This document shows positions 5,810 to 31,732 of a stretch of DNA of 41,623 nucleotides, piece after piece. Position numbers and translations under genes: made by a program. This DNA is from Methylocucumis oryzae (GTDB taxonomy: Bacteria > Pseudomonadota > Gammaproteobacteria > Methylococcales > Methylomonadaceae), in assembly GCF_000963695.1 (NCBI RefSeq), contig NZ_LAJX01000004.1, positions 1 through 41,623 of the forward strand, read 5' to 3'. The stretch's first letter is position 1; each line of letters starts with the position of its first letter. Under the pieces are notes generated by a model. It was not told the origin of the DNA, made no database searches, and worked only from the letters and a program-made list of their open reading frames with translations.

Positions 5810-5824
5810 TTTGTGCTAAACTTT
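5810..5824 (+). promoter_or_regulatory. candidate extended -10 promoter
   Basis: TTTGTGCTAAACTTT contains TG-C-TAAACT, an extended -10 shape, about 50 bases before the start of the next gene. The same 15-mer with one change occurs at 6731-6745 before the RTX gene. No convincing -35 box is visible. Confidence 0.45.
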
Positions 5825-5872
5825 TTAAATGAGCTATGCCACTATTTTAAACGTTACACAAAAGGTTACAAC

Positions 5873-6070
5873 ATGTCAGAACAAGTAAAAGATAAAAAAC
5901 AACCTAATATCCGGGAAATATCAAGCGTTCCTGGGTTTGATTCTGCCACAATAGTAGATACTGAAGACGCTACTAAAGGTATTGCTACAGCTATTGAAGT
6001 TAAAAATACCATGCCGTCTATTCCAAATAGAAACCGCGACGATAACGGACGTAAGCAAGATGAATCTTAA
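5873..6070 (+). CDS. small hydrophilic protein, partner of the following membrane protein
   Basis: A 65-residue product starting MSEQVKDKKQPNIREISSVP. The frame could be extended to 5813, but the ATG at 5873 sits after the candidate promoter and gives a compact soluble protein. It is charged and Thr/Asp-rich, with no membrane segment and no recognisable motif. Its 3' end overlaps the start of the two-TM protein by 11 bases, so the two are probably translated together and may act as a pair. No function can be assigned. Confidence 0.55.
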   Translation: MSEQVKDKKQPNIREISSVPGFDSATIVDTEDATKGIATAIEVKNTMPSIPNRNRDDNGRKQDES

Positions 6071-6626
6071 AGAGCAACTTAATTTATCCGATGAAAACTA
6101 TAACTTATTGTTTGATATACGGCGCTCTGTTCGGTATCACGACCGTAGGAAAAGCTTTTTTTATGCTATTCAAAATGTCGTTAGTTTCCTCTCAGTGATA
6201 ATGGCCGGTGTTGTTATCATGGACGCCGTTAAGCAAGGTATTACACCATACTGGATGATTAGTGTTGGAGTTATTGCTGCGATATTATCTGCGTTGGATT
6301 TAGTCATAGGCTTTTCAAAAAAAGCCGATATGCATTCTAAATTACGCGAGAAATTTGCCGACCTTGAGATAGATATTATTACCGGCCCGCCGTCTGGCGA
6401 AATATGGCTAGAGTATCAAAAGAAGCGTTTGGTCATAGAGAAAGATGAGCCTGCTATCTATTTTGCAATTGATGGCTTATGCCGTAATGAGCTATTGATA
6501 GCGGACGGTTTTTCTAGGCTAAACGATGCATGTCATTTCGCTAAGGTCAATTGGTTGCAAAGACTTTCCGCGCATTGGTTTCATTGGCAAAACGCAACAT
6601 TTTTTTCAATAATGTTTGCTAGCTGA
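6060..6626 (+). CDS. two-TM SLATT-like membrane protein
   Basis: A 188-residue protein from the ATG at 6060; the frame is open further upstream, but that part would lie wholly inside the preceding gene. Two close hydrophobic helices (about residues 36-56 and 64-85) are separated by a short loop. They are preceded by a charged helix (RRSVRYHDRRKSFFYAIQ) and followed by a long amphipathic region with KKADMHSKLREKFADLEIDI. This layout resembles the SLATT family (SMODS/SLOG-associated two-TM effectors), whose members form membrane pores in nucleotide-signalling defence. No SLOG or nucleotidyltransferase partner is encoded here. A phage superinfection-exclusion or anti-defence role is inference. 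The AT content is higher than in the structural genes. Confidence 0.55.
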   Translation: MNLKEQLNLSDENYNLLFDIRRSVRYHDRRKSFFYAIQNVVSFLSVIMAGVVIMDAVKQGITPYWMISVGVIAAILSALDLVIGFSKKADMHSKLREKFADLEIDIITGPPSGEIWLEYQKKRLVIEKDEPAIYFAIDGLCRNELLIADGFSRLNDACHFAKVNWLQRLSAHWFHWQNATFFSIMFAS

Positions 6627-6772: not shown

Positions 6773-7385
6773 ATGGCTACACTATATGGCACTAAAAGCA
6801 ACGATGAAATTAACGGAACAGATATTAAGGATTACATCTATGGATTAGAAGCTGGTGATACTATTTATGGTAATGGTGGTAACGATATTATCTATGGTGA
6901 TAATAAAAAATATGTTTATGGCGATGGCGGTGATGTGATTTACGGCGGCAAAGGTAATGACAAAATATATGGCGGTGAAAGTAGAGACTCTTTACATGGA
7001 GATGAAGGTAATGACCGCCTTATTGCCGGAGAAGGAGATGATTTTTTAAGAGGCGGGCGTGGCAATGATATTTTAACTGGTGGAGGCGGGGACGATATTT
7101 TTTTCTTTTACCGAAATTAAAACAGGTTATGACACTATAACTGATTTTCATCGAGGCGATGACATTATCGACTTATACAATATTGACGCAAATAACCATA
7201 CTTATGATGGGAATAATAAATTTACCTATATTGGCAAAGGTGATTTTTATGCTGAAGGTCAGATAATTTTTAATCCAGATACACACTATTTATTGTTAAA
7301 TATCGATGATAATTTTGATACTGCGGAAATAATCATTAAGGTTTTAGGCGTTACGGAAATGAACCAGTTTGATTTTTATTTGTAG
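6773..7385 (+). CDS. small RTX-type calcium-binding repeat protein (one frame break)
   Basis: About 203 residues. It consists of glycine- and aspartate-rich nonapeptide repeats of the hemolysin-type: GNGGNDIIYGD, GGKGNDKIYGG, GDEGNDRLIAG, GGRGNDILTGG. These form a calcium-filled beta-roll. After them comes the usual capping segment (TEIKTGYDTITDFHRGDDIIDL). There is no toxin, protease or secretion domain, and the length is far below that of RTX exoproteins. The frame breaks at the T7 run 7098-7104: one T fewer gives GGDDIFSFTEIKTG, a standard RTX end. It is probably a phage moron or a virion-attached protein. It converges on the J-domain gene with a shared terminator. Confidence 0.8.
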
Positions 7386-7428: not shown

Positions 7429-8520
7429 TTAAGATAGAGCATCCAATAATACATCTCTTGCTGCCTTAGATTTTATAAACATATCAGCAATTCCGCCTCT
7501 ATCTGGATGATGTTTTAAAGAGGCTTTAACAAATGCTTTCTTAATCGCTTCAATAGTTTCAGGCCATTTTGTTATCCCTAAAATATCCATTGCCCATTGG
7601 ATATTATTAATTGGAATTTCAACAACATCATAAATATCATCATCTAATTTTGCGTTAAATTTCGCATCATCGTCTTTAATAGTATGTTTTATTTTTTCAA
7701 ATTCGCTTTTGCTATAAAGCATATAGCCATTACTATAAGCTGCATATCCATTTTTCTCAAAATCATCTCTTTTAACCATAAAAGCGTAAGAAATTTGAGA
7801 TTGCCAACCTTGCTTTAAATAACTGCAACCACAGTAAGGGAAAAGTTCAACAAAAATATTACTCTTGGTTTTTTTGATGATTCTATGCCGATACCATGTT
7901 TGTTTTTCATAATGGTTTTTATTTCTAACTTTGTATATGAATTCAATAATAAAAATATCGCTTTTTTGTGGTTTAGTTTTAAATCGTTTAATAGCTTCTT
8001 TTTTTCTAATGTAATTTATGACATAGCCACTAAGATAGTTTTGCTCTGAAAATCCTTGTTTTTCTATTAGTAATGTATGTAATTCATTTTCTGTTAAATT
8101 ACGTCGTTCAAAAATTGGTTCAATATTACAAAGATAATGCAATCGGTTAGTCCAGATTGCTAAATCATATTTATCAATACCTTTTTTGGCGTATGAAATT
8201 ATGCCAGAGTTGTATTTAGAAAACTCAAGAAGGAGTTGATTAGCGTGATGATTGTTGTTGAAAATAATTAGCCCATCCATGCAATATTGTTTCGCAATGT
8301 TAACAACGCTTGGTTGACCATAAACAAGACCTGATAATATCGGTGGCCTATAAACATCATGCTTGGATAAATATCCCAAATTGCCCATATATAAGCATCT
8401 TTTTTTATTAATATCAGGAATTAATTGATGATTGTCTGTAAGATAAGGTAATAGAACTAAGTTTATATCGGCGTCTAGTTGCACAACTGAGAAGAAAAAT
8501 TGATTATCAAGACTTTTCAT
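7429..8520 (-). CDS. protein with C-terminal J domain (DnaJ-like)
   Basis: A 363-residue leftward gene. The last 60 residues form a J domain: AMDILGITKWPETIEAIKKAF (helices I-II), then KHHPDRGG, with the catalytic HPD at about 338-340, followed by a helix (FIKSKAARDVLLDAL). J domains stimulate Hsp70 (DnaK) ATPase. The first ~300 residues match no family I know; they are aromatic- and lysine-rich and soluble. A C-terminal J domain without Gly/Phe or zinc regions indicates a class III co-chaperone, which would recruit host DnaK to a specific partner. The gene is AT-rich and runs against its neighbours, which fits an acquired accessory gene. It diverges from the C4-RNA/antirepressor unit. Confidence 0.75.
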   Translation of the reverse strand: MKSLDNQFFFSVVQLDADINLVLLPYLTDNHQLIPDINKKRCLYMGNLGYLSKHDVYRPPILSGLVYGQPSVVNIAKQYCMDGLIIFNNNHHANQLLLEFSKYNSGIISYAKKGIDKYDLAIWTNRLHYLCNIEPIFERRNLTENELHTLLIEKQGFSEQNYLSGYVINYIRKKEAIKRFKTKPQKSDIFIIEFIYKVRNKNHYEKQTWYRHRIIKKTKSNIFVELFPYCGCSYLKQGWQSQISYAFMVKRDDFEKNGYAAYSNGYMLYSKSEFEKIKHTIKDDDAKFNAKLDDDIYDVVEIPINNIQWAMDILGITKWPETIEAIKKAFVKASLKHHPDRGGIADMFIKSKAARDVLLDALS

Positions 8521-8565
8521 AAAACTCTTATTTTTGTTGAAATTATTGACGTTTTAATCTGATTA

Positions 8566-8660
8566 GGCGTATCCTTATGCCGCCTTCACCACATTGTGAA
8601 GGTCGGGCTTACGACTCCCGTTTTATCAAAGGATGCCAGCGCATCATGCGCTATTTTTTT
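8566..8660 (+). ncRNA. C4-like antisense RNA with intrinsic terminator
   Basis: An outer stem (GGC..ATCCTT at 8566-8576 with AAGGATGCC at 8629-8637) encloses two hairpins. The first is CCTTCAC/GTGAAGG (8583-8602). The second is CGGG/CCCG (8604-8620) with loop CTTACGACT. A short GC-rich hairpin (8638-8652) and seven T's then end the RNA. This is the architecture of the C4 RNA of phages P1/P7, which represses an antirepressor operon by pairing with its leader. The second loop TACGACT (8610-8616) is complementary to AGTCGTA at 8723-8729, and the match extends to 10 of 11 bases with the flank. GCCGCC (8579-8584) can pair with 8766-8771. The location directly upstream of an antirepressor gene fits. 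Confidence 0.7.
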
Positions 8661-8801
8661 GCCTACCGTTTTGGTGGTCTGGCACAGGCTCGCTTACGCG
8701 AGGCCGTCTTCCTTTGGACGGTAGTCGTATCCTGTGTCAGGCTGCCGCCCAACACGACATCAAGCGGCGGTCTTCTTAAATCACAAAGGAGACTATCATG
8801 A
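8646..8801 (+). CDS. Ash/Icd-like small ORF upstream of antirepressor
   Basis: A 51-residue frame from ATG 8646 (the frame also has an ATG at 8577 inside the C4-like RNA). The sequence MRYFFAYRFGGLAQARL, then SCVRLPPNTTSSGGLLKSQ, is the recognisable style of the P4 Ash / P1 Icd-like family. That family is found just before antirepressor genes and is sometimes annotated as a host cell-division inhibitor. Its TGA overlaps the next ATG as ATGA, so translation is probably coupled, as in icd-ant of P1. It may act mainly as a translated leader; conservation could reflect RNA structure more than protein function. Confidence 0.6.
   Translation: MRYFFAYRFGGLAQARLREAVFLWTVVVSCVRLPPNTTSSGGLLKSQRRLS
8679..8771 (+). 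promoter_or_regulatory. structured leader of the antirepressor operon, C4 target
   Basis: A 10-bp stem (CTGGCACAGG at 8679-8688 with CCTGTGTCAG at 8731-8740, one G-U pair) encloses two hairpins, CTCGC/GCGAG (8689-8702) and CCGTC/GACGG (8704-8721). The C4-complementary AGTCGTA (8723-8729) is left single-stranded in the junction. A further stem GCCGC/GCGGC spans 8744-8768. The antirepressor ribosome site (AAAGGAG) follows. Confidence 0.6.
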
Positions 8802-9789
8802 ATACCGCAACCCTATCCCCCGAAACACTTCCCGCTATCATTTGGAATAACCAACCTGTTATTACCACTGAGCTTCTTGCTAATATTTACGGCGCAAAGG
8901 AAATTCAAATTCAGCAAAATTTCAATAATAACGCCAGTCGTTTTATTGAAGGAATTCATTATTTCATAATTAAAGGCACTGATTTAAAAGAACTAAAATT
9001 GTACTTAGATAAAATCGAAGTACAAATTTCAAACATGGTTCGTAAGCTTTACCTCTGGACAGAACGCGGTACCGTACGCCACGCCAAAATACTTGATACC
9101 GATAATGCGTGGCTAGTACAAGACCAACTGGAAGAATTTTATTTTACTAAGAACACACCCGTCCCATACGGTTTAAAAGACACACCAACCGAGCGCCTAC
9201 CCCTCAAAAAACCAAGCTCGCATTGCCTGGTTGTCTATCCGCTGAAACGCAAGACGAGCTTAAGAAGCTCATTGATGACCGTGCAGCGCTGTTACCCAAA
9301 GACCAGCAAGCCAAGGCGGTTATCTCAATGTGGAGTGCATTAGGTACGCACTTCGGTGTTAAAAAAGAAAAAGGCGACAAAATTCCGGCTTACAAACGCA
9401 TTCCTGAAGGTGCGCGGCTAGAATGTTTATCGCTGTTAGCCCGGTTATCGGTCGATGATTTGGTCACGATGACACAAAACGAATTCGAGCAAGCGATTAA
9501 TGACCGGATTGCGTTATTGCCTAAGCCAGAAGCCGAACCAGTCACCTTAGACGAAAAAATACAGCAAATCGTTGACGCCAAAATAAAAGCGATTCAAGGC
9601 GAGTTAATGCCACGGGTTGTTTTAAGCGATGACCAAGTTCTCGTTAGCAAGACTAAGCTAAAACAAGCCTTGCGCCGTGCATGTGGTGAGAAAATAACTA
9701 TTCGATTAGGCCATGACTTAATCGTTAAAGTAAATGAAGATATTTACCAACAGTCAGAACACGCATTTTTTGAAACCTTGAATCACTAA
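8798..9789 (+). CDS. ORF6N-domain antirepressor-like protein (one frame break)
   Basis: About 330 residues. The N-terminal domain is ORF6N: IWNNQPVITTELLANIYGAK, then QQNFNNNASRFIEGIHYF, and LYLWTERGTVRHAKIL. This DNA-binding module occurs in phage antirepressors. The C-terminal part (LPGCLSAETQDELKKLIDDR, then ISMWSALGTHFGVKK and SLLARL) resembles the C-terminal region of the P22 antirepressor family. The A6 run at 9206-9211 lacks one A; repair joins PLKKT to KLALPGCL. AAAGGAG precedes the ATG, which overlaps the Ash-like stop. It is probably repressed by the C4-like RNA and, when made, inactivates a repressor. No repressor gene is in the window. Confidence 0.8.
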
Positions 9790-9975
9790 CAATAAAGGCC
9801 ACGGACGGCCTACTCGGTACAGACTTGCGGAAATAGATTAATTAATAGTTGTAATCTACTTAAAATCGATTAATTTTCAATATTAAACTTTATTTTTACT
9901 TTTATGCATGTTTTTACTCGCATTAATAAAAAATTCCAGTAAAATAATAGCTTATTTTGCGATTAGGTGATTGTT

Positions 9976-10974
9976 ATGACTGAACATAAAGATTTAATAG
10001 GAAAGGCTAAAGGCGGAAAAGCTCTTGCGGATAAAATGACTATTGAAGAGCGAAAAGCCAAGTCATTAGCTATGGTTGATGCTAAAAAGCGCAGAAAGGA
10101 AATGCCAAAAGCAACTCATGACGGTATCTTAATAATTTTAGATATAAAGATACCTTGTTATGTATTAAGTAATGGGCAGAGAGTTTTATCTCAAAGAGGA
10201 ATATCAGAAGCATTCACAGGAAATCGCGGGGGGGAAGTGTTGCTGGTGATGGCGCGCAAAAAACCCCTCGTTTCCTTGCAAAAAAAGATGTTATATCTTT
10301 TATAAACAATGATTTACTTGCGCGCATAAATTCGCCTATTGAATTTCTTCCAAAAGCAGGAAGAAGCGCTTTTGGTTATGATGCAATCTTATTACCTGAA
10401 ATTTGTGAGGTAATAATGGATTCGTCAAGAAAAAATAACAAAATAGATTCGCAGCAAAATCTAATTGCCGAAACCCTTATAAGAGGTTTTGCTAGAGTTG
10501 GAATATCCGCTTTAGTTGATGAAGCAACAGGCTATCAAAAAGATAGGGAAAAAGATGCTCTAGCAAAAATACTCGAAGCATTTGTAGCAAAGGAATTACA
10601 GCCTTGGATTAAGACATTTGACCATGAGTTTTATGAAAATATGTTTAGATTACGCGGCATACCTTATCCGCCTAAAAATTCAAATTATAAACCTAGTTAT
10701 TTTGGGCATTTAACCAATGATATTGTTTATAGAAGGCTTGCCCCAGGCGTTTTTAGATGCTTTAAAAGAAGAAGCAAAAAAGGAAGAAAAGAAAACTCAT
10801 TTACATCGACATTTAACAGCCGGATATGGCAGGCAAGAGTTACTTAAGCATCTTGGCGGTGTTATTTGGTTAATGAGAGATTCAAATAATTGGCAAGATT
10901 TTATAGCTAGATTGGATAAGCAAGCGCCTAGATACGGAGAAACAATGCCATTTGATTTTGACGATACAAATTAG
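9976..10974 (+). CDS. P63C-domain phage protein (two frame breaks)
   Basis: About 332 residues. ATG 9976 follows AGGTGA. The repaired sequence reads VLSQRGISEAF, then GDGAQKTPRFLAKKDV, INSPIEFLPKAGRSAFGYDA, LVDEATGYQKDREKDALAKI and LHRHLTAGYGRQELLKHLGG. These are the landmarks of the P63C family, found in phages and mobile elements next to Bro/ORF6N-type regulators and of unknown biochemical role. Breaks are a missing G (or two extra) in the G7 run 10228-10234, and an extra T in 10750-10754 (LAPGV to LDALKEEAKKEE). A 186-base gap before it carries a 5-bp hairpin AGGCC/GGCCT at 9796-9811 and an AT-rich stretch that could hold a promoter. Confidence 0.75.
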
Positions 10975-11320: not shown

Positions 11321-11395
11321 TTAGGAAAACCCGACAACTCCATTCCCACGAACCACCATAATCTAGCCAACAGTACATTAAACAGGCTAGATTAT
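11321..11395 (+). promoter_or_regulatory. TTAGGAAAAC box plus start-codon inverted repeat
   Basis: TTAGGAAAAC at 11321-11330 lies with its GGAAAAC 70 bases before the ATG at 11394. A perfect 11-bp inverted repeat, ATAATCTAGCC (11358-11368) / GGCTAGATTAT (11385-11395), ends on the first two bases of that ATG. The same layout precedes the genes at 13300, 25405 and 32561. Confidence 0.5.
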
Positions 11396-12399
11396 GCTCC
11401 CGCAATTTCAAGAAGTCAGGACGCGCAGGCTTAAAGCGTCTTATAGTGAGCTGACAGTCGGTCAGTCGCTTGCTTTATCAAGTTTGCCGCCAGAGTCTAC
11501 ATGGCGGTCAATACGCGAATTCCTTTCCTACGTTGTTACTCTCGACGGCGTTAATTCGGTACAAGAGCTGACGGTACCGGAACAAAATTTACTCTTGTGC
11601 CAATACCTTTCCGCGCTTTCGCCGCATCCCGATTTTGAACTAAGTCAAAATGGGCATTATTCCGATTATTTAAACGCCGCCTTTGATGTCGAATTGGATG
11701 GTGAACGCCAGCTTAAAGTATTCGATTTAGGCATTATTGGCGATGACCATTGGCAAATAAGCTATTTAACCGGTGGCATGGCGGAAGCGATTGAACGCCT
11801 ACAAGGTGAAGTTAAGCTACCGAATAACCACGTTGTTACCGAACTGCAATATTGGGAGCTAGGCTGCATGGCGGCGATGCTGTCTATTGTTGACCAACCT
11901 ATATTAAATCCCTATCAAAACGAAGGCGCATACGATGAGCAATTACTGCATCGGATGAACGTTTTTCTCAATTATCCACAAAGCATTTTCCGACAACTCA
12001 GAACCGCCTTTTATAGCGGTTGGGTACAACTCGACCACTTGTTTAGTCTTGGGTTAAACAATAAGGGCATTGTTGTTATGCCAAGGGAGGTCGGTTCTAC
12101 CTTGCCGCCTGCCCGATTTCGCGTATCTGCAATCATCCCCGCAAGCATTAAAGGACTGGCAGCATCAACTGCATAGCGCGATTGATAACGCAGTGCTGTA
12201 TGCCAACTGTTCGTTACCAGAGGCGTACACGTTGCCGGTTAGCGCAATAGACCAGTTTCTTACCGGTGACGCTTTTAAGAACTGGAAAAAGCAAAAAGAG
12301 AACGAAATAACAATACAGATTGCCCAGGTTGACCGAATAAACCGAGTGATTCAGACCTTGGGTAATTTTATGAAAATGGTTGCAAAGATGAGGCGATGA
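11394..12399 (+). CDS. phage virion/assembly protein (one frame break)
   Basis: About 334 residues after repair, opening MLPQFQEVRTRRLKASYSEL. The middle (ELQYWELGCMAAML, then LHRMNVFLNYPQSIFRQLR) reads like a myophage tail-assembly protein. The end is a coil-forming stretch (NWKKQKENEITIQIAQVDRI). One base is surplus somewhere between 12079 and 12118; removing an A from CCAAGGG gives MPGRSVLPCRLPDFAYLQSS, but the exact site is not certain. It starts a unit behind the TTAGGAAAAC box and overlaps the next gene by four bases. It could be a tail chaperone or a baseplate-related protein; the family is not identified. Confidence 0.55.
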
Positions 12400-25404: not shown

Positions 25405-28400
25405 ATGCTCTCATTCAAAGAAAAACGAGAATTACAAAAAATAATTTCCGCACAAAATGCAATTCTTGCCGGTAATCCATCATTTTCAGAAAAGCGAGCG
25501 GCGCAAAAGGCTAAGGCCGATGCACTAATTAAGCTTGGGGTTGTTGGAGATGCAAAAGAGGCTTTAACGCCATTAGAAGAGCAAGTTATATCAACTCAGG
25601 TTGATAATAGCGATTACGGATTACAAGCCAGCGGAGTTAAAACTCGCGAGAAAATCAACGCCCAAGTTAAATCAATTACCGACCTGATACGCGCAGGTAA
25701 AGACCCAGCGACATTAACGTCGGATGAAATTAACCTGCTTAAACAATACTCAGGCAAAGGCGGCTTAACAATTAATTCGCAGCATGAATACTACACACCT
25801 ACGCATGTTGCCCAAGGTGTATGGGATGCGCTTAAAATAAATGGTTTTGAAAACGGCAACGTGCTTGAACCCAGTAGTGGTGCAGGTGTGTTTTTGGCAA
25901 CTAAGCCTCAAGGTGTTATTGCTACTGGTACGGAAATCGACGAAACAAGCGCGACTGTCGCACAGGTGTTAAATCCTAATGACAAAGTAAGCAATTCATC
26001 GTTTGAGCTATTAGCGGTCAATGCCGATGATAATAGTTTTGATGCTGTTATAGGCAACGTACCCTTCGGGAATGCCCGTGGCGCATCGGCGCATGATGAC
26101 CCGGAATATAAAAATGAAAAGCTAATTGAACGTTATTTTGTTCAACGCGTTATCGATAAAGTTAAACCAGGCGGTTTAATTTGTCTTATCGTGCCGGTTA
26201 ATATCATTCAAGCTAAAGGCAAGGCATGGGAAAAATTCCGTATTGCGATTAGCAAAAAAGCCGAATTCTTAGGTGGGCATAAGTTACCGTCTAAAACGTT
26301 CGGCAAGCAAGGCACGGATGTTGTAGTCGATGTGTTGGTGATGCGTAAGCACGGTGCAGAATTCTTAAGTCGAGTTGACGATTTAACCTTTTGATACGCT
26401 TAAAGCTACTAATGTCGTGTGGGATGAATTCATCGAAGGTCGATACTGGCAAGGCGAAGGCAAGAAATTCATTAAAGGTGAATTCGTGCCAAAAGACCCC
26501 ACTAAATTCCGTGATTCAGATAAAGTTATTGCTGGCGAAAACATGACCGATGAGGCGCTTAAGCGGTCATTAGCGGTTAAGTTTGATTCGCGCATTGATT
26601 GGGTATTATTGGATGAAGCTGAGCCGATAACCAGAAATTATTCTGAAGGTGATATTAAAACAATCAATGGCCTTGATTACGAACTTAAAGCCGGTCAATG
26701 GAAAAAAGTGACCTATGACACCCAGAAAACGATTATTGATTTAGCTCAATATGGCTCTGACTCGATTGAAGCATTGGAAGGCTTGATGTCTACCGATGCG
26801 GGGATTTTGTCGCTCAATTGGGCGCAGGTTGAGTCAACGTTAGCCGCATATCCTAATATTGTTCCGGGTTATGTTAAAGACGCGTTACGGTTTTCAGATT
26901 TACAACCGCCTGAGCATCAATGGCGGGCATTCCGTGGCGCAATCATTGGCGCAAAAATCGAAGGCTATCTTAATAGTGGTAGTAATGACCAGGGCGAACT
27001 GGATGAGCTTAAAGAGATTATTCTTCATGAGGTTGTGAAATACGGCAGCCCTAAAGATATTTCCGGTTTAGTGTTAGCCGGTAAAGAGTCAAAACGACTA
27101 GGCATGTTCATCAATTCAATTGATGAAAAAGGTAATTTCTCACCAATGCTTGAGTCAGGAATTCTTAAGCAAGAAGCCGATGAGTACAATAGCGCCGATG
27201 TAACCTCAATCATTGCTTACTTATTCGAGAAGAATCAAGACCCCGTTGAGCTTAGTACAATTTTGGAAATGTACGATGGCGATAAGCGCTTAGAGGATTT
27301 AGGCGATATTGTTGAAATACCTGGTATGGCGGTGTCGCCCGATGGCTTTATCTGGCCGCTTGAGCAATATTGTTCCGGTGATATTTATCAAAAGATGCGC
27401 GATATGCGTGATGCCATGCTGGATGAAAAAGACCTGCGCATTATTGCCGCTTACAAGCGACAAATAGAGCGAATTGACGCAAAGCGACGTAAAACACCGA
27501 CTGAAGATATTACGTTTGCTATGCGGCAAAAATGGTTTGATAAAGCCTATGTCTTGGAGTTTTTACAAGCCAATGGCTATAAACGCACGATTACCTATAG
27601 CGAAGAGCGTGGAGAATGGAAGGCAGTTGGGGTATCAGGCGGAATCGTTCCGCAAATCGTTAACTACCTTAATGAAAAGCCAATCGCGGGCGGCACTAAA
27701 GTAGCTGAATATAAGGACGGCATTAAAGCGTTAGAAGAGCAGTTTAACGCGTTTATGCAATCCCATTCCGATGGTGAAGACTTAACCAATCGTTATAACG
27801 AAACATTTAATGGGTATGTTGAATTTAATTTCAGCAATAGCGACCTTGGGTTAAAAAATGTTAGCGGGAAAATTATTCCGCACAGTTACCAAAATGAAGG
27901 GATTAGGAGATTATCCAGAGAAGGCAAAGGGATTCTTGGGTGGGACGTCGGACTTGGAAAATCCTACGGAGCATTAGCGCTACAAGCCTACAACGAACAA
28001 ATGGGCAGAGCGAAACGCACGTGTATCACGGTACCCGATGCCGTACTTGCCAACTGGTATCACGAACACAAGCTATTTTACAAAGATACATCAAATATGC
28101 TCTTTGTAGGTATGTCGCCCAAACGTGACAAAGATGGCAATATCGTTCAAGAACGTGTGTTAGACGAAAAAGGCAATCCAAAACAGGATAAAAACGGGCA
28201 AGACCTTTATCAAGACGTGCTGGTTAAAGACGACCGCGAGACTATTTGGGAGAAAATGCATCGAATACCGCAGTCTAATTTGTCTTTAGTCGTTATGACA
28301 CAACCGCAGTTTGGCAAGATTCCGGTTAAACAAGCGACTAAGCAGCAATATGCCGATGAAATGATGGCTAAAGAATTACTAAGCCAGTCGGATGCTAAAA

Positions 28401-31400
28401 AGCTAATGGAAGACAAGCTTACCTATGAAGGTGCGAAAGAAAAAGACCGGTTGAGCCAAAAATACAGTGATGAAGGCACGGCGAAGCAAGACGCCTACCC
28501 GTATTTTGAAGATATGGGCTTTGATTCGGTTATCGTCGATGAAGCGCACAATTTTAAAAATAGCTTCAGCCCAGGTAAAGAATCTTCTCGAATCGCGTAT
28601 TTACCTACGCCTGCGCCTTCACAAAGAGCTATCGATATGTCGCTAAAAATGGCGTATATCCGCAAAGAAAACGGCGGACGTGGGCCAGTATTGTTATCTG
28701 CGACCCCCGTAACTAACAGTCCGCTGGAAATCTATAACATGCTATCGTTATTAATTCCGGCAGAAGAGTTTGAAAAGTTTGGCGTATTTACGCCGGATGA
28801 CTTTATCCGCGTATTCGGGCGAGTTGAAAGTATCGAAAAAATGAAAGTATCCGGCGACGTTGGCACGGTTGACGCGATGGTTGGCTTTCAAAACCTTGAT
28901 GGGTTGCGGTCGCTATTCCATAAATACTCGATTATTAAAAATGCCGAAGATGTTAAATTGCCATTACCCGATGCCGATGAGGTTAATGCCACAGTTGAAC
29001 TATCTGAAGAACAACAAGATATTTATCAAATATTGCGCGAAGAGGCTAAACAAGCGTCGTCACCAGACCCAAAGATAAGAGAAACTGCAAGGCCGTTGTT
29101 TTCCATTATTCGTGATATGGACAGAACGACAACTGACCTGGATATGTACCACAAACAAATAACGTTTGTGTTTACTGATGCGCACAAAGATGCATTAGAT
29201 AAGGCGATGGCAATGATGCCAACAACGGTACAACGCAAGGAATATGATAGTGACCTTGAAAAAAGATGTAGTTGTAACTGTTCCGTTTGAATACTCAATA
29301 ACTGAAAGTGATGGCAAAATCATTGTTGTAATGACCGATGCGGGCGAAGACGACATGCTTTCTGCCATGCAAAAAAGTTGGGATACCAGAAAAAGAAGTC
29401 GCGCACCCGATTACGCCTAAATATGCCGAATTAATTAAAAACCTGACTATCGAATTAGAAGCGGGTGGCAAGCAAATCATATTCATCGAAGAGAAAACTC
29501 AGCATCAAAAATTAGCCAGAATTCTTGTACATTTTTTGCCTATTACAATGGAAAACATTGGCGTTATTAATGCGACCGATGCGGCTGGGGAAAAACTACA
29601 ACGCATATCTGACGCTTATAACGCGGGCAAAATAAAGATTGTCATAGCGAATAAAAAAGCCGAAGTAGGCGTTAATCTACAAAAAGGCACAACGGCGATT
29701 CACCACCTTACTTTCCCTTGGGTTCCGGCGTCAATGCAGCAACGCAATGGCCGTGGGGTTCGTCAGGGCAATACGGTAGACACGGTTAAAATTTACCATT
29801 ACATCGGCAAAGGCTCTTTTGATTTATTCCGGTTAAATTTAATTAACCAAAAAGGCAACTGGATTAACGATATTTTAAGAGGCACTGAATCTAGCGTTGA
29901 AAATAAAGGCGACGGGCATTTATCGGCTGAAGATGTGATGGTTTTATTATCCGATAACCCGGAGGAAGCCCGTGCTAGGATGGACGAAGCAAAAGCCAAG
30001 CGCGATGCTAAGAAAAAAGATAAAGCCGATAAAGCGATGGTGATAAACCTTAATCAGCTTGTTGAGGCTAGAAAAAAATTAAGCTTACTGTCAGGATGGA
30101 AAAAACGCCGAAGCTTTGCAATTAACCGCAGACATATCTGCGCAAGAAGCAAAATTAACCGGGTTTAACAATGATGGCTCAGACGATGCAAAAGCTAAAT
30201 TAATCAGCCTTAAAAACAAATTGGCCGCCTCTAAGCGTAAACTAGAGACCTTAGACGCAAAATACAAAGAAATCGAAGAAAACACTACGGCGACCATTAA
30301 GCAAAAATCAGTATTTTTGCGAGCAAAAGCCGCATCCGGGGAATTGCCTTTTGATGCATCCGTCATTGATAACACGGATGCGGTATTAATATCGCGCGAA
30401 GGGCAAATAATTAAAGCGGGTGCAATCTTTGAATTCAAAACGCTTAAGTATGTTGATAACAAAATCAATGACCTGGCGTTAGTCACTGAACTAAATATTC
30501 AAGAAAAGTTTTTTATTGTCAGAGCTAGAAATTTAACCTATGACATCAGGATTTATTTAGCCGATTTGCATAATTACCAATTGCAACCGGTGGCGATGAC
30601 CAAGGAAGATTGGGAGGTTGCCGTTATGTTGGCAAAAAACCTATCAATAAAAGACATCATTGAATTGGGTGTTGATACGTTTACAAAATATCGTAAGCAA
30701 ATTAAATTGTATTATGGCTATCACTATATTTCGTCTATCGACGGTGACTATAGTGTTGTAAAAAACTACAATTCAAATAATCCTATTGATGATAATTTTG
30801 TTTTCCCTGATGCCAATAGTGAGGACATTAAACGCGCTATTGCTAAGCAGTATTATGTTGGTAAAAATACTAACGAAGTAATCCGTGACCTAATTATTCC
30901 TTTGTACGGTAGCAGTGGATGGGAAGAATCGTTAAAGCAGTATGCTAATTTAACCCCGCAAGAAGAGGTATTAAGCCAAGCAGCTTTAGCATTCAGCAAG
31001 ATAGCGGTTGAGTACGATAAAAGCGAAATTGACCTTGCTAGTACAATTAGTTATAGCGACCGTATAGGTCTTATAGAGCGCATAGAGAGCACGATTAATG
31101 GTGATAATCGAGAAAGCATTAAGCAATGGGTTAATGAGTTTTTAAATGATAGAAAATCTAAAGCCTTAGAAATTATTGCCGAAAAACGGCGTAAAGATGA
31201 AGAGGAACAAGTAAAAAGTGACCCGAATTACAAAGAAATTCCGGTGGCGATTGCTGATAAATTGAAAAGCATAGGGATTACAGCAAAGTATAACGCACAA
31301 TCTGTTTATGCAGGGCGTAGTCATCGTAGCGCGTTTACGATGCTGTTTTTGCAAGATAGCAACGGCAAAAACGGTTTACTCTTTAAAGCTAAAGAAGATT

Positions 31401-31732
31401 TGAAAACCTATTTTGGCGCACAATTCGGCACAGACATTGGTGCGGGTCTAATGGGCGCGTGGTGGTTTATTACAGCCGACAAAGATATAAATAAGGTTTT
31501 ATCGACTATTACCGGTGAAAATTCCGTCGCCGAACTTGCAGAACAAAAAGCTAAGCCAGAGAAATTAATTGTGCCTGAAGGCAAAGTAAAAATAGGTGAT
31601 ACGGTAGCTGGGTTTGTTGTAACCAGTCTAGGCAAATCGTGGGAAGCTAAAGATTACCATATCAGCAAAGTCAAAGCTGATTCAGGCTTTGAAATTGAAG
31701 AGGGTGATTCCATCCAATATGCGAGATTTTAA
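25405..31732 (+). CDS. DarB-like polyvalent protein: N6-adenine methylase fused to SNF2-type helicase (four frame breaks)
   Basis: About 2,107 residues after repair. Residues ~110-330 are an adenine methyltransferase: motif I VLEPSSGAGVFL and motif IV IGNVPFG, where NVPF replaces the usual NPPF/NPPY. A superfamily 2 helicase follows, with Walker A WDVGLGKS, box II VDEAHNFKNS, motif III LLSATPVTNSP and motif VI QQRNGRGVRQGN. A further ~600 residues of coiled coil and unassigned domain close it. Breaks are extra bases at T 26389-26392, A 29259-29264, A 29371-29376 and A 30100-30105. The architecture matches P1 DarB and related phage or plasmid polyvalent proteins that enter with DNA and block restriction. 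It starts behind an AAAGGAAAAC leader. Confidence 0.85.

Follow-up and report, generated by a model that had tools for sequence, protein, structure and literature searches.

The DNA before an ORF6N antirepressor gene in the window (the whole 41,623-nt stretch analysed here, which is an entire contig of its assembly) had been read, in an initial annotation made from the letters, as a C4-type antisense RNA switch. The locus raises the question of which of its RNAs is the C4 RNA, with which sites it pairs, and whether it belongs with the systems of P1, P4 and Gifsy-1. Judging by sequence, we consider it highly probable that the window holds the immunity-type RNA module common to P1 (C4), P4 (CI/seqA) and Gifsy-1 (IsrK/STnc1160), and that C4 acts in it by blocking synthesis of the antirepressor.

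The surroundings are as that annotation had described them, a structural-gene region, with matches to tail sheath, portal and tail tube proteins on the contig, and further PmgG-like and DarB-like matches. Several of these protein names come from P1-type phages. The assembly carries a PF02461 (PmoA/AmoA) gene (428.5 bits), so that the host is probably a methanotroph.

Identity of the C4 RNA

The sole match over cut-off in an Rfam scan of the whole window was to the C4 antisense RNA (RF01695), at 8667-8752, with 55.9 bits against a cut-off of 45 and spanning model positions 1-87 of 87 (Table 1). A permissive scan of 8500-8820 returned this match again, together with an isrK match upstream of it at 8582-8658, and the C4 model gave no match at E<=10 to 8560-8665, the segment for which a covariance search had been proposed as a check. 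The kind of element had been recognised correctly, as a C4-type switch before an ORF6N antirepressor, but its parts had not: since C4 matches 8667-8752 and isrK 8582-8658, the presumed leader is the C4 RNA itself and the presumed C4 is its upstream partner.

Table 1. Features of the RNA module and of the antirepressor frame, in coordinates of the window
Feature	Position	Strand	Basis
Predicted sigma-70 promoter, TTGACG - 18 nt - TATCCT	8546..8575	+	promoter scan
Upstream RNA resembling isrK / P4 seqA / c4-a1b1	8582..8658	+	sub-cut-off isrK match, predicted fold
a1 site TACGACT	8610..8616	+	complementary to a' 8723-8729
b1 site CAAAGGA	8627..8633	+	complementary to b' 8710-8716
Intrinsic-terminator-like hairpin and T-run between a1b1 and C4	8638..8659	+	hairpin 8638-8652 plus tail
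C4 antisense RNA	8667..8752	+	Rfam RF01695, predicted fold, position compared with P1 c4 RNA
C4 outer stem	8672-8688/8731-8747	+	predicted fold
C4 hairpins	8689-8702 and 8703-8722	+	predicted fold
C4 loop b' TCCTTTG	8710..8716	+	complementary to b1 and b2
C4 junction a' AGTCGTA	8723..8729	+	7 nt to a1, 5 nt to a2
a2 site ACGAC (weak)	8754..8758	+	5-nt match to a'
Proposed c2 site GGCGGT	8766..8771	+	opposite C4 3' arm GCCGCC 8744-8749
b2 / Shine-Dalgarno CAAAGGAG	8784..8791	+	7-nt match to b' (CAAAGGA at 8784); ATG at 8798
ORF6N antirepressor frame	8798..9343	+	PF10543 E 1.3e-19; PHROG anti-repressor phrog_1760 1.1e-44

The predicted minimum-energy fold of C4 (-45.6) has an outer stem that closes two hairpins, and the stretch 8665-8805 folds as a three-way-junction RNA with a z of -5.35 (0 of 200 shuffles equally good), so that the three-way junction reported downstream stands as a fold but not in its role as a leader, being the C4 RNA. 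By position relative to P1, the mature C4 would be about 8673-8749, that is 77 nt, and would start with GGT. The excerpts of PMC5320573 available to us deal with Acinetobacter, where C4-like RNAs undergo RNase P-type processing, and describe a GGW processing motif; in the window, GGT at 8673 is such a motif at the place of the P1 mature 5' end, and cleavage there is a prediction.

Rfam C4 matches P1, P4 and Gifsy-1 with 68.8, 74.9 and 69 bits, in all three over the cut-off. The isrK model matches upstream of C4 with 35.1, 60.8 and 79.3 bits (two of three over the cut-off, P1 being below) and c4-a1b1 with 51, 44.1 and 48.1 bits (also two of three over it), and in each system the three models match in the same order along the DNA. 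The link of these profiles to P4 is already published, as the accessible part of PMC10111431 reports that relatives of CI and seqA are picked up by the C4 and isrK profiles of Rfam. C4 and c4-a1b1 are listed as motifs in the excerpt of PMC2864571, and IsrK and C4 are covered in those of PMC12197685 and PMC8546580.

P1 resembles the window in C4 fold and score, in the places of a' and b', in the positions of a1, b1, a2 and b2 and in its antirepressor operon, and in both the target adjoins or lies inside a Shine-Dalgarno sequence. The P1 record annotates a1 and b1 (as ‘putative’), C4 at 48343-48419 (77 nt), a2 and b2, and our site-finding script, applied to P1 as a positive control, recovered all four sites at their annotated places. 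In P1, however, icd follows directly after b2, whereas b2 of the window is the antirepressor's own Shine-Dalgarno sequence, and a2 is weak in the window, unlike in P1. P4, with its CI RNA and seqA/seqC, has C4 and isrK in the window's order and shows the same complementarities, but the gap from isrK to C4 is 107 nt, as opposed to 8 nt in the window, and its next genes are not annotated as antirepressor. Gifsy-1 (IsrK / orf45 / anrP) has, as does the window, a 77-nt isrK match, C4 and then an antirepressor-like gene, with b2 abutting its Shine-Dalgarno sequence. Apart from the weak a2 and the two cut-offs missed with the upstream models, every sequence test makes the module of the window an ordinary member of this known RNA immunity family.

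The upstream element and the leader sites

Promoter, two hairpins, terminator and C4 follow one another on one strand of the window, each of them as a prediction. The promoter-like site is weak when taken alone, with one found where 0.7 would be expected by chance; its -35 box lies 64 nt before a1, compared with 60 nt for the P1c4 annotated in P1. Transcription is predicted to start near 8582, where the match to isrK (RF01394) begins, a match that runs over the full length of the model (1-77) with 28.4 bits (cut-off 50) and an E value of 1.9e-4 in a 321-base scan. The Rfam element c4-a1b1 (RF03163) is like the upstream element in role and place, but its model has no match at E<=10 in 8500-8820. 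Folded alone, 8582-8658 forms a hairpin at 8582-8603, a second at 8604-8620 whose loop holds a1, a small weak stem and the terminator, which agrees with the two hairpins and the terminator-like stem (8638-8652) followed by a T-run tail of the initial annotation.

The heptamer TACGACT (8610-8616) and its complement AGTCGTA (8723-8729) occur in one copy each between 8540 and 8830, and the match of 10 of 11 bases with the flank, counted by eye, is as it had been given. It is the pairing of a' with the upstream site a1 and not that with the ribosome-binding site of the antirepressor, which would be the pairing of b' with b2. The set of b1, b' and b2 (CAAAGGA at 8627 and 8784, TCCTTTG at 8710), which includes the Shine-Dalgarno sequence, had been missed. 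In 20,000 random placements in this window, a match of at least 7 nt at 20-170 nt upstream arose in 9.1%, and an a-type together with a b-type match in 0.6%. As in c4-a1b1 elements, a1 is the complement of a' and b1 that of b' in the C4 downstream (7 and 7 nt), and the predicted duplex of a1b1 with a'b' has -27.8 kcal/mol, compared with -13.6 +/- 2.9 for shuffled sequences (0 of 1000 shuffles equally good).

At the window's flanks, segments from the other 74 loci of the comparison described below equal or beat its own in 2.7% at a1, 9.5% at b1, 51.4% at a2 and 13.5% at b2, and the a2b2 duplex of the window has no advantage over shuffled sequences (444 of 1000 equally good). The weak a2 and this undistinguished duplex are the main result against a fully working repressor in the window.

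A second match of the initial annotation, GCCGCC (8744-8749) with GGCGGT (8766-8771), holds with five standard pairs and one G-U, GCCGCC having a second copy at 8579. It corresponds to a site that we propose as c2, defined as the leader segment between a2 and b2 that is complementary to the C4 3' arm. Within the window's taxonomic order, c2 has a z of 7.6 (0.0 for the C4 5' arm as control), with at least 6 nt in 39 of 75 loci, and by duplex energy a z of 8.7, against 1.1 for the 5' arm control; in the 22 independent loci from outside the order the values are 2.1 and 2.3 (9 of 22). By eye, a c2-type match is found in P4 (9 nt), Gifsy-1 (8 nt) and P1 (8 of 9). None is annotated in the examined stretch of the P1 record, and such a site is not mentioned in the excerpts of PMC4825925, PMC10111431, PMC2864571, PMC5320573, PMC12197685 and PMC8546580 at hand. 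We regard c2 as a possible third leader site, which stays a proposal because it is strong in the order yet weak in the independent set.

A more specific role for c2 strikes us as unlikely, though worth stating: it would compete for the C4 3' arm and help to hide the Shine-Dalgarno sequence in a leader hairpin as long as C4 is folded, and on opening of C4 by the a1b1 RNA, its 3' arm, now free, would take c2 and the Shine-Dalgarno sequence would be released. If so, the module would be a three-state switch, with the upstream short RNA as a built-in anti-antisense RNA. In the leader tests, which took in 68 of the 75 non-redundant loci, 59 of 66 loci have their Shine-Dalgarno sequence paired in a leader hairpin with a probability above 0.5, and own parts fitted better than swapped ones (z 4.3-4.9). 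A Shine-Dalgarno-hiding leader hairpin was nevertheless rejected, its mean pairing of 0.81 being modestly over the controls (0.74 with the left parts of other loci, 0.68 shuffled).

Co-variation across C4 loci

Of 301 genomes sampled in the window's order, where the P1/P4/Gifsy-1-type module is common, 130 had a C4 match at E<=0.001. A match was also found in 24 of 369 genomes searched in the class outside that order. The set compared here consisted of 112 loci, namely L001, L002 (the window's own locus), 30 returned by the order search and 80 hand-picked among the matches listed. Loci with a minimum-energy fold lacking the expected two-hairpin junction were dropped (L040, L080 and L085, leaving 109; L143, L155 and L169 from the outside-order set), and removal of near-duplicates reduced the 109 to 75, with 41 distinct junction 7-mers, and the outside set from 25 to 22.

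At all four sites the C4 of a locus fits its own flanks better than does a swapped C4, with 0 of 2000 permutations as high in each case (109 loci). The mean longest exact match, own versus swapped, is 7.09 vs 5.08 (a) and 6.63 vs 4.81 (b) upstream, and 6.82 vs 4.72 (a) and 7.43 vs 4.64 (b) downstream, and matches of at least 6 nt are found at a upstream, b upstream, a downstream and b downstream in 105, 93, 97 and 101 of the 109 loci. For the 75 non-redundant loci the z values are 18.7 (a1), 19.0 (b1), 19.7 (a2) and 25.8 (b2), and for the 22 non-redundant loci of the class outside the order 9.0, 10.6, 9.5 and 12.8. The parts and their order can be seen in the sequence, and across loci a1, a' and a2 co-vary, as do b1, b' and b2. 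Compensatory change of loop and target had been suggested as a further check, and a' and a1 do vary together (75 + 22 loci); on this evidence the TACGACT/AGTCGTA pairing is real, one of four that co-vary. The upstream sites, ‘putative’ in the P1 record, co-vary with C4 about as much as the downstream target does, and so the role of the upstream element, as termination site or decoy, is testable across many natural pairs.

In 105 of 109 loci the 60 nt before C4 include a T5 run, and 83 of 109 have a promoter-like site scoring at least 10, with the -35 box at a median of 61 nt before a1 (where a1 is at least 6 nt); both are counts without a shuffled control, and the a1 and b1 positions of this survey were found by complementarity itself, so that only the swapped comparison is evidence. 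Of 20 of these loci examined by cmscan, 16 have an isrK and/or c4-a1b1 match directly before C4 and in its orientation, and in 7 the isrK score exceeds its cut-off. DNA similarity searches found no relatives of the RNA stretch: 17 phage records had short weak matches, 12 of which fell in the part of the query that codes for ORF6N, plasmids gave no match, and the family gave pieces in 2 of its 236 other genomes. A contig search with the antirepressor returned one locus (L033), which was left out of further analysis.

The same assembly contains a second C4 module, L001 (1353-1586, with C4 at G000:C24:8834-8919), which has the a' CTGCTAA, differs from the window in the letters of a' and b', and precedes a Rha-type regulator gene. 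Its c4-a1b1 match (30.2 bits) and its isrK match are also below cut-off.

The antirepressor gene, the proposed mechanism and its alternatives

The antirepressor gene apparently goes on in a different frame (9223-9789), which has a weak Ant match only (phrog_245, 0.0058), and with the frame interrupted the product may not be made. A Pfam scan at E<=0.001 of 93 frames downstream of C4, that of the window included, found Bro-N in 9, KilA-N in 7, Rha in 4, AntA in 3, ORF6N in 3 and P22_AR_N in 2 (counts that may overlap), so that an ORF6N target of C4 is not unusual; the 93 are those of 109 that remained after setting aside frames without a start found, under 40 codons or without a stop in the locus. 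A P63C-domain fragment (10416-10847; PF10546, 3.8e-22) lies beyond the antirepressor.

The small ORF at 8577-8801 does overlap the antirepressor by ATGA (ATG 8798, TGA 8799-8801), and its own ATG at 8577 lies 5' of the predicted transcription start. The label Ash-like was rejected, with no Pfam family at E<=10 and no PHROG at E<=0.01. Of 109 loci, 100 have an ATG at the C4 5' end, in the first 10 nt of C4, which the window lacks. In 64 of the 95 loci with a defined stop and next start, the frame of this ATG stays open up to 30 nt before that start or further, as compared with 77 of 190 cases for the two remaining frames. Several C4 loci have such an ATG frame of about 45 codons whose end overlaps the next start by 4 bases, like Gifsy-1 orf45. 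Gifsy-1 has this coupling orf45 (PMC4825925, in excerpt), whereas the corresponding frame of the window, read by eye, has TTG for ATG and reaches its stop after 17 codons. A coupling ORF of the orf45 type was rejected as a general rule.

From the arrangement of the parts we infer a course of events that covers the transcription start, processing, repression and which way a1b1 acts. One promoter would give rise to a short terminated a1b1 RNA and, by read-through, to a transcript with C4 followed by the antirepressor gene; C4 would be excised from the latter transcript. Its b' would pair with b2, the Shine-Dalgarno sequence of the antirepressor, and a' weakly with a2, and antirepressor synthesis would be blocked. 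The a' and b' surfaces would also pair with a1 and b1 upstream. Most likely, this second pairing makes transcription end early, at the terminator, in the manner of P4, and free short a1b1 RNA can in addition soak up C4, raising antirepressor synthesis as IsrK does.

That the a1b1 RNA is instead mainly a decoy, titrating C4 and so turning the antirepressor on as in Gifsy-1, and not a site of C4-enforced termination as in P4, we hold to be a serious contender but the less probable course. According to the accessible portions of PMC4825925, the short IsrK RNA acts as a translational activator of its own read-through mRNA, anrP translation rising over 100-fold with IsrK in trans, and the co-variation of a1 and b1 with C4, like that of a2 and b2, would suit a decoy. 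Both models predict the same pairings, however, and sequence cannot separate them, while the same element in P4, a seqA-type element, is the site where CI causes termination (PMC10111431, in the part available). The Gifsy-1 excerpts (PMC4825925) also note P4 SeqA as a structural homologue and discuss STnc1160 as a CI-like factor, and report that co-expressed STnc1160 strengthened, and did not weaken, the growth arrest by IsrK, which argues against a decoy.

It is very improbable that the C4 RNA is 8560-8665 with its outer stem, acting on a leader at 8679-8800, as first proposed. An outer stem closing the two hairpins does appear when folding from 8560 (minimum-energy fold of 8560-8665, z -3.95), and the heptamer match is real, but besides the missing C4 model match the 5' arm of this stem overlaps the predicted -10 box (TATCCT, 8570-8575), so that the stem is probably not transcribed, and the C4 annotated in P1 sits, relative to a1, b1, a2 and b2, as 8667-8752 does. 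We also think it rather unlikely that the module is a decaying remnant, in which the pairing parts can still be read and a working antirepressor is no longer regulated. The antirepressor split over two frames and the weak a2 would fit such decay, whereas the sites a1, b1 and b2 are present together with the C4 fold, the terminator and the promoter-like site, and other ORFs of the window overlap in different frames too, which may point to assembly indels.

Such neighbouring ORFs, overlapping or successive in different frames, lie at 5813-6626, 6773-7385, 8798-9789, 9967-10974 and 11394-12399, and may reflect assembly indels or decay; two of these places are close to base runs (9206-9211 and 10228-10234). 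On the minus strand, opposite to the surrounding phage genes, 7429-8520 encodes a 363-aa protein with a C-terminal DnaJ match slightly below cut-off (25.3 vs 27.8 bits). Matches to DarB-like antirestriction or methyltransferase-helicase proteins (phrog_1685, phrog_11801) extend over more than one ORF at 26417-31732.
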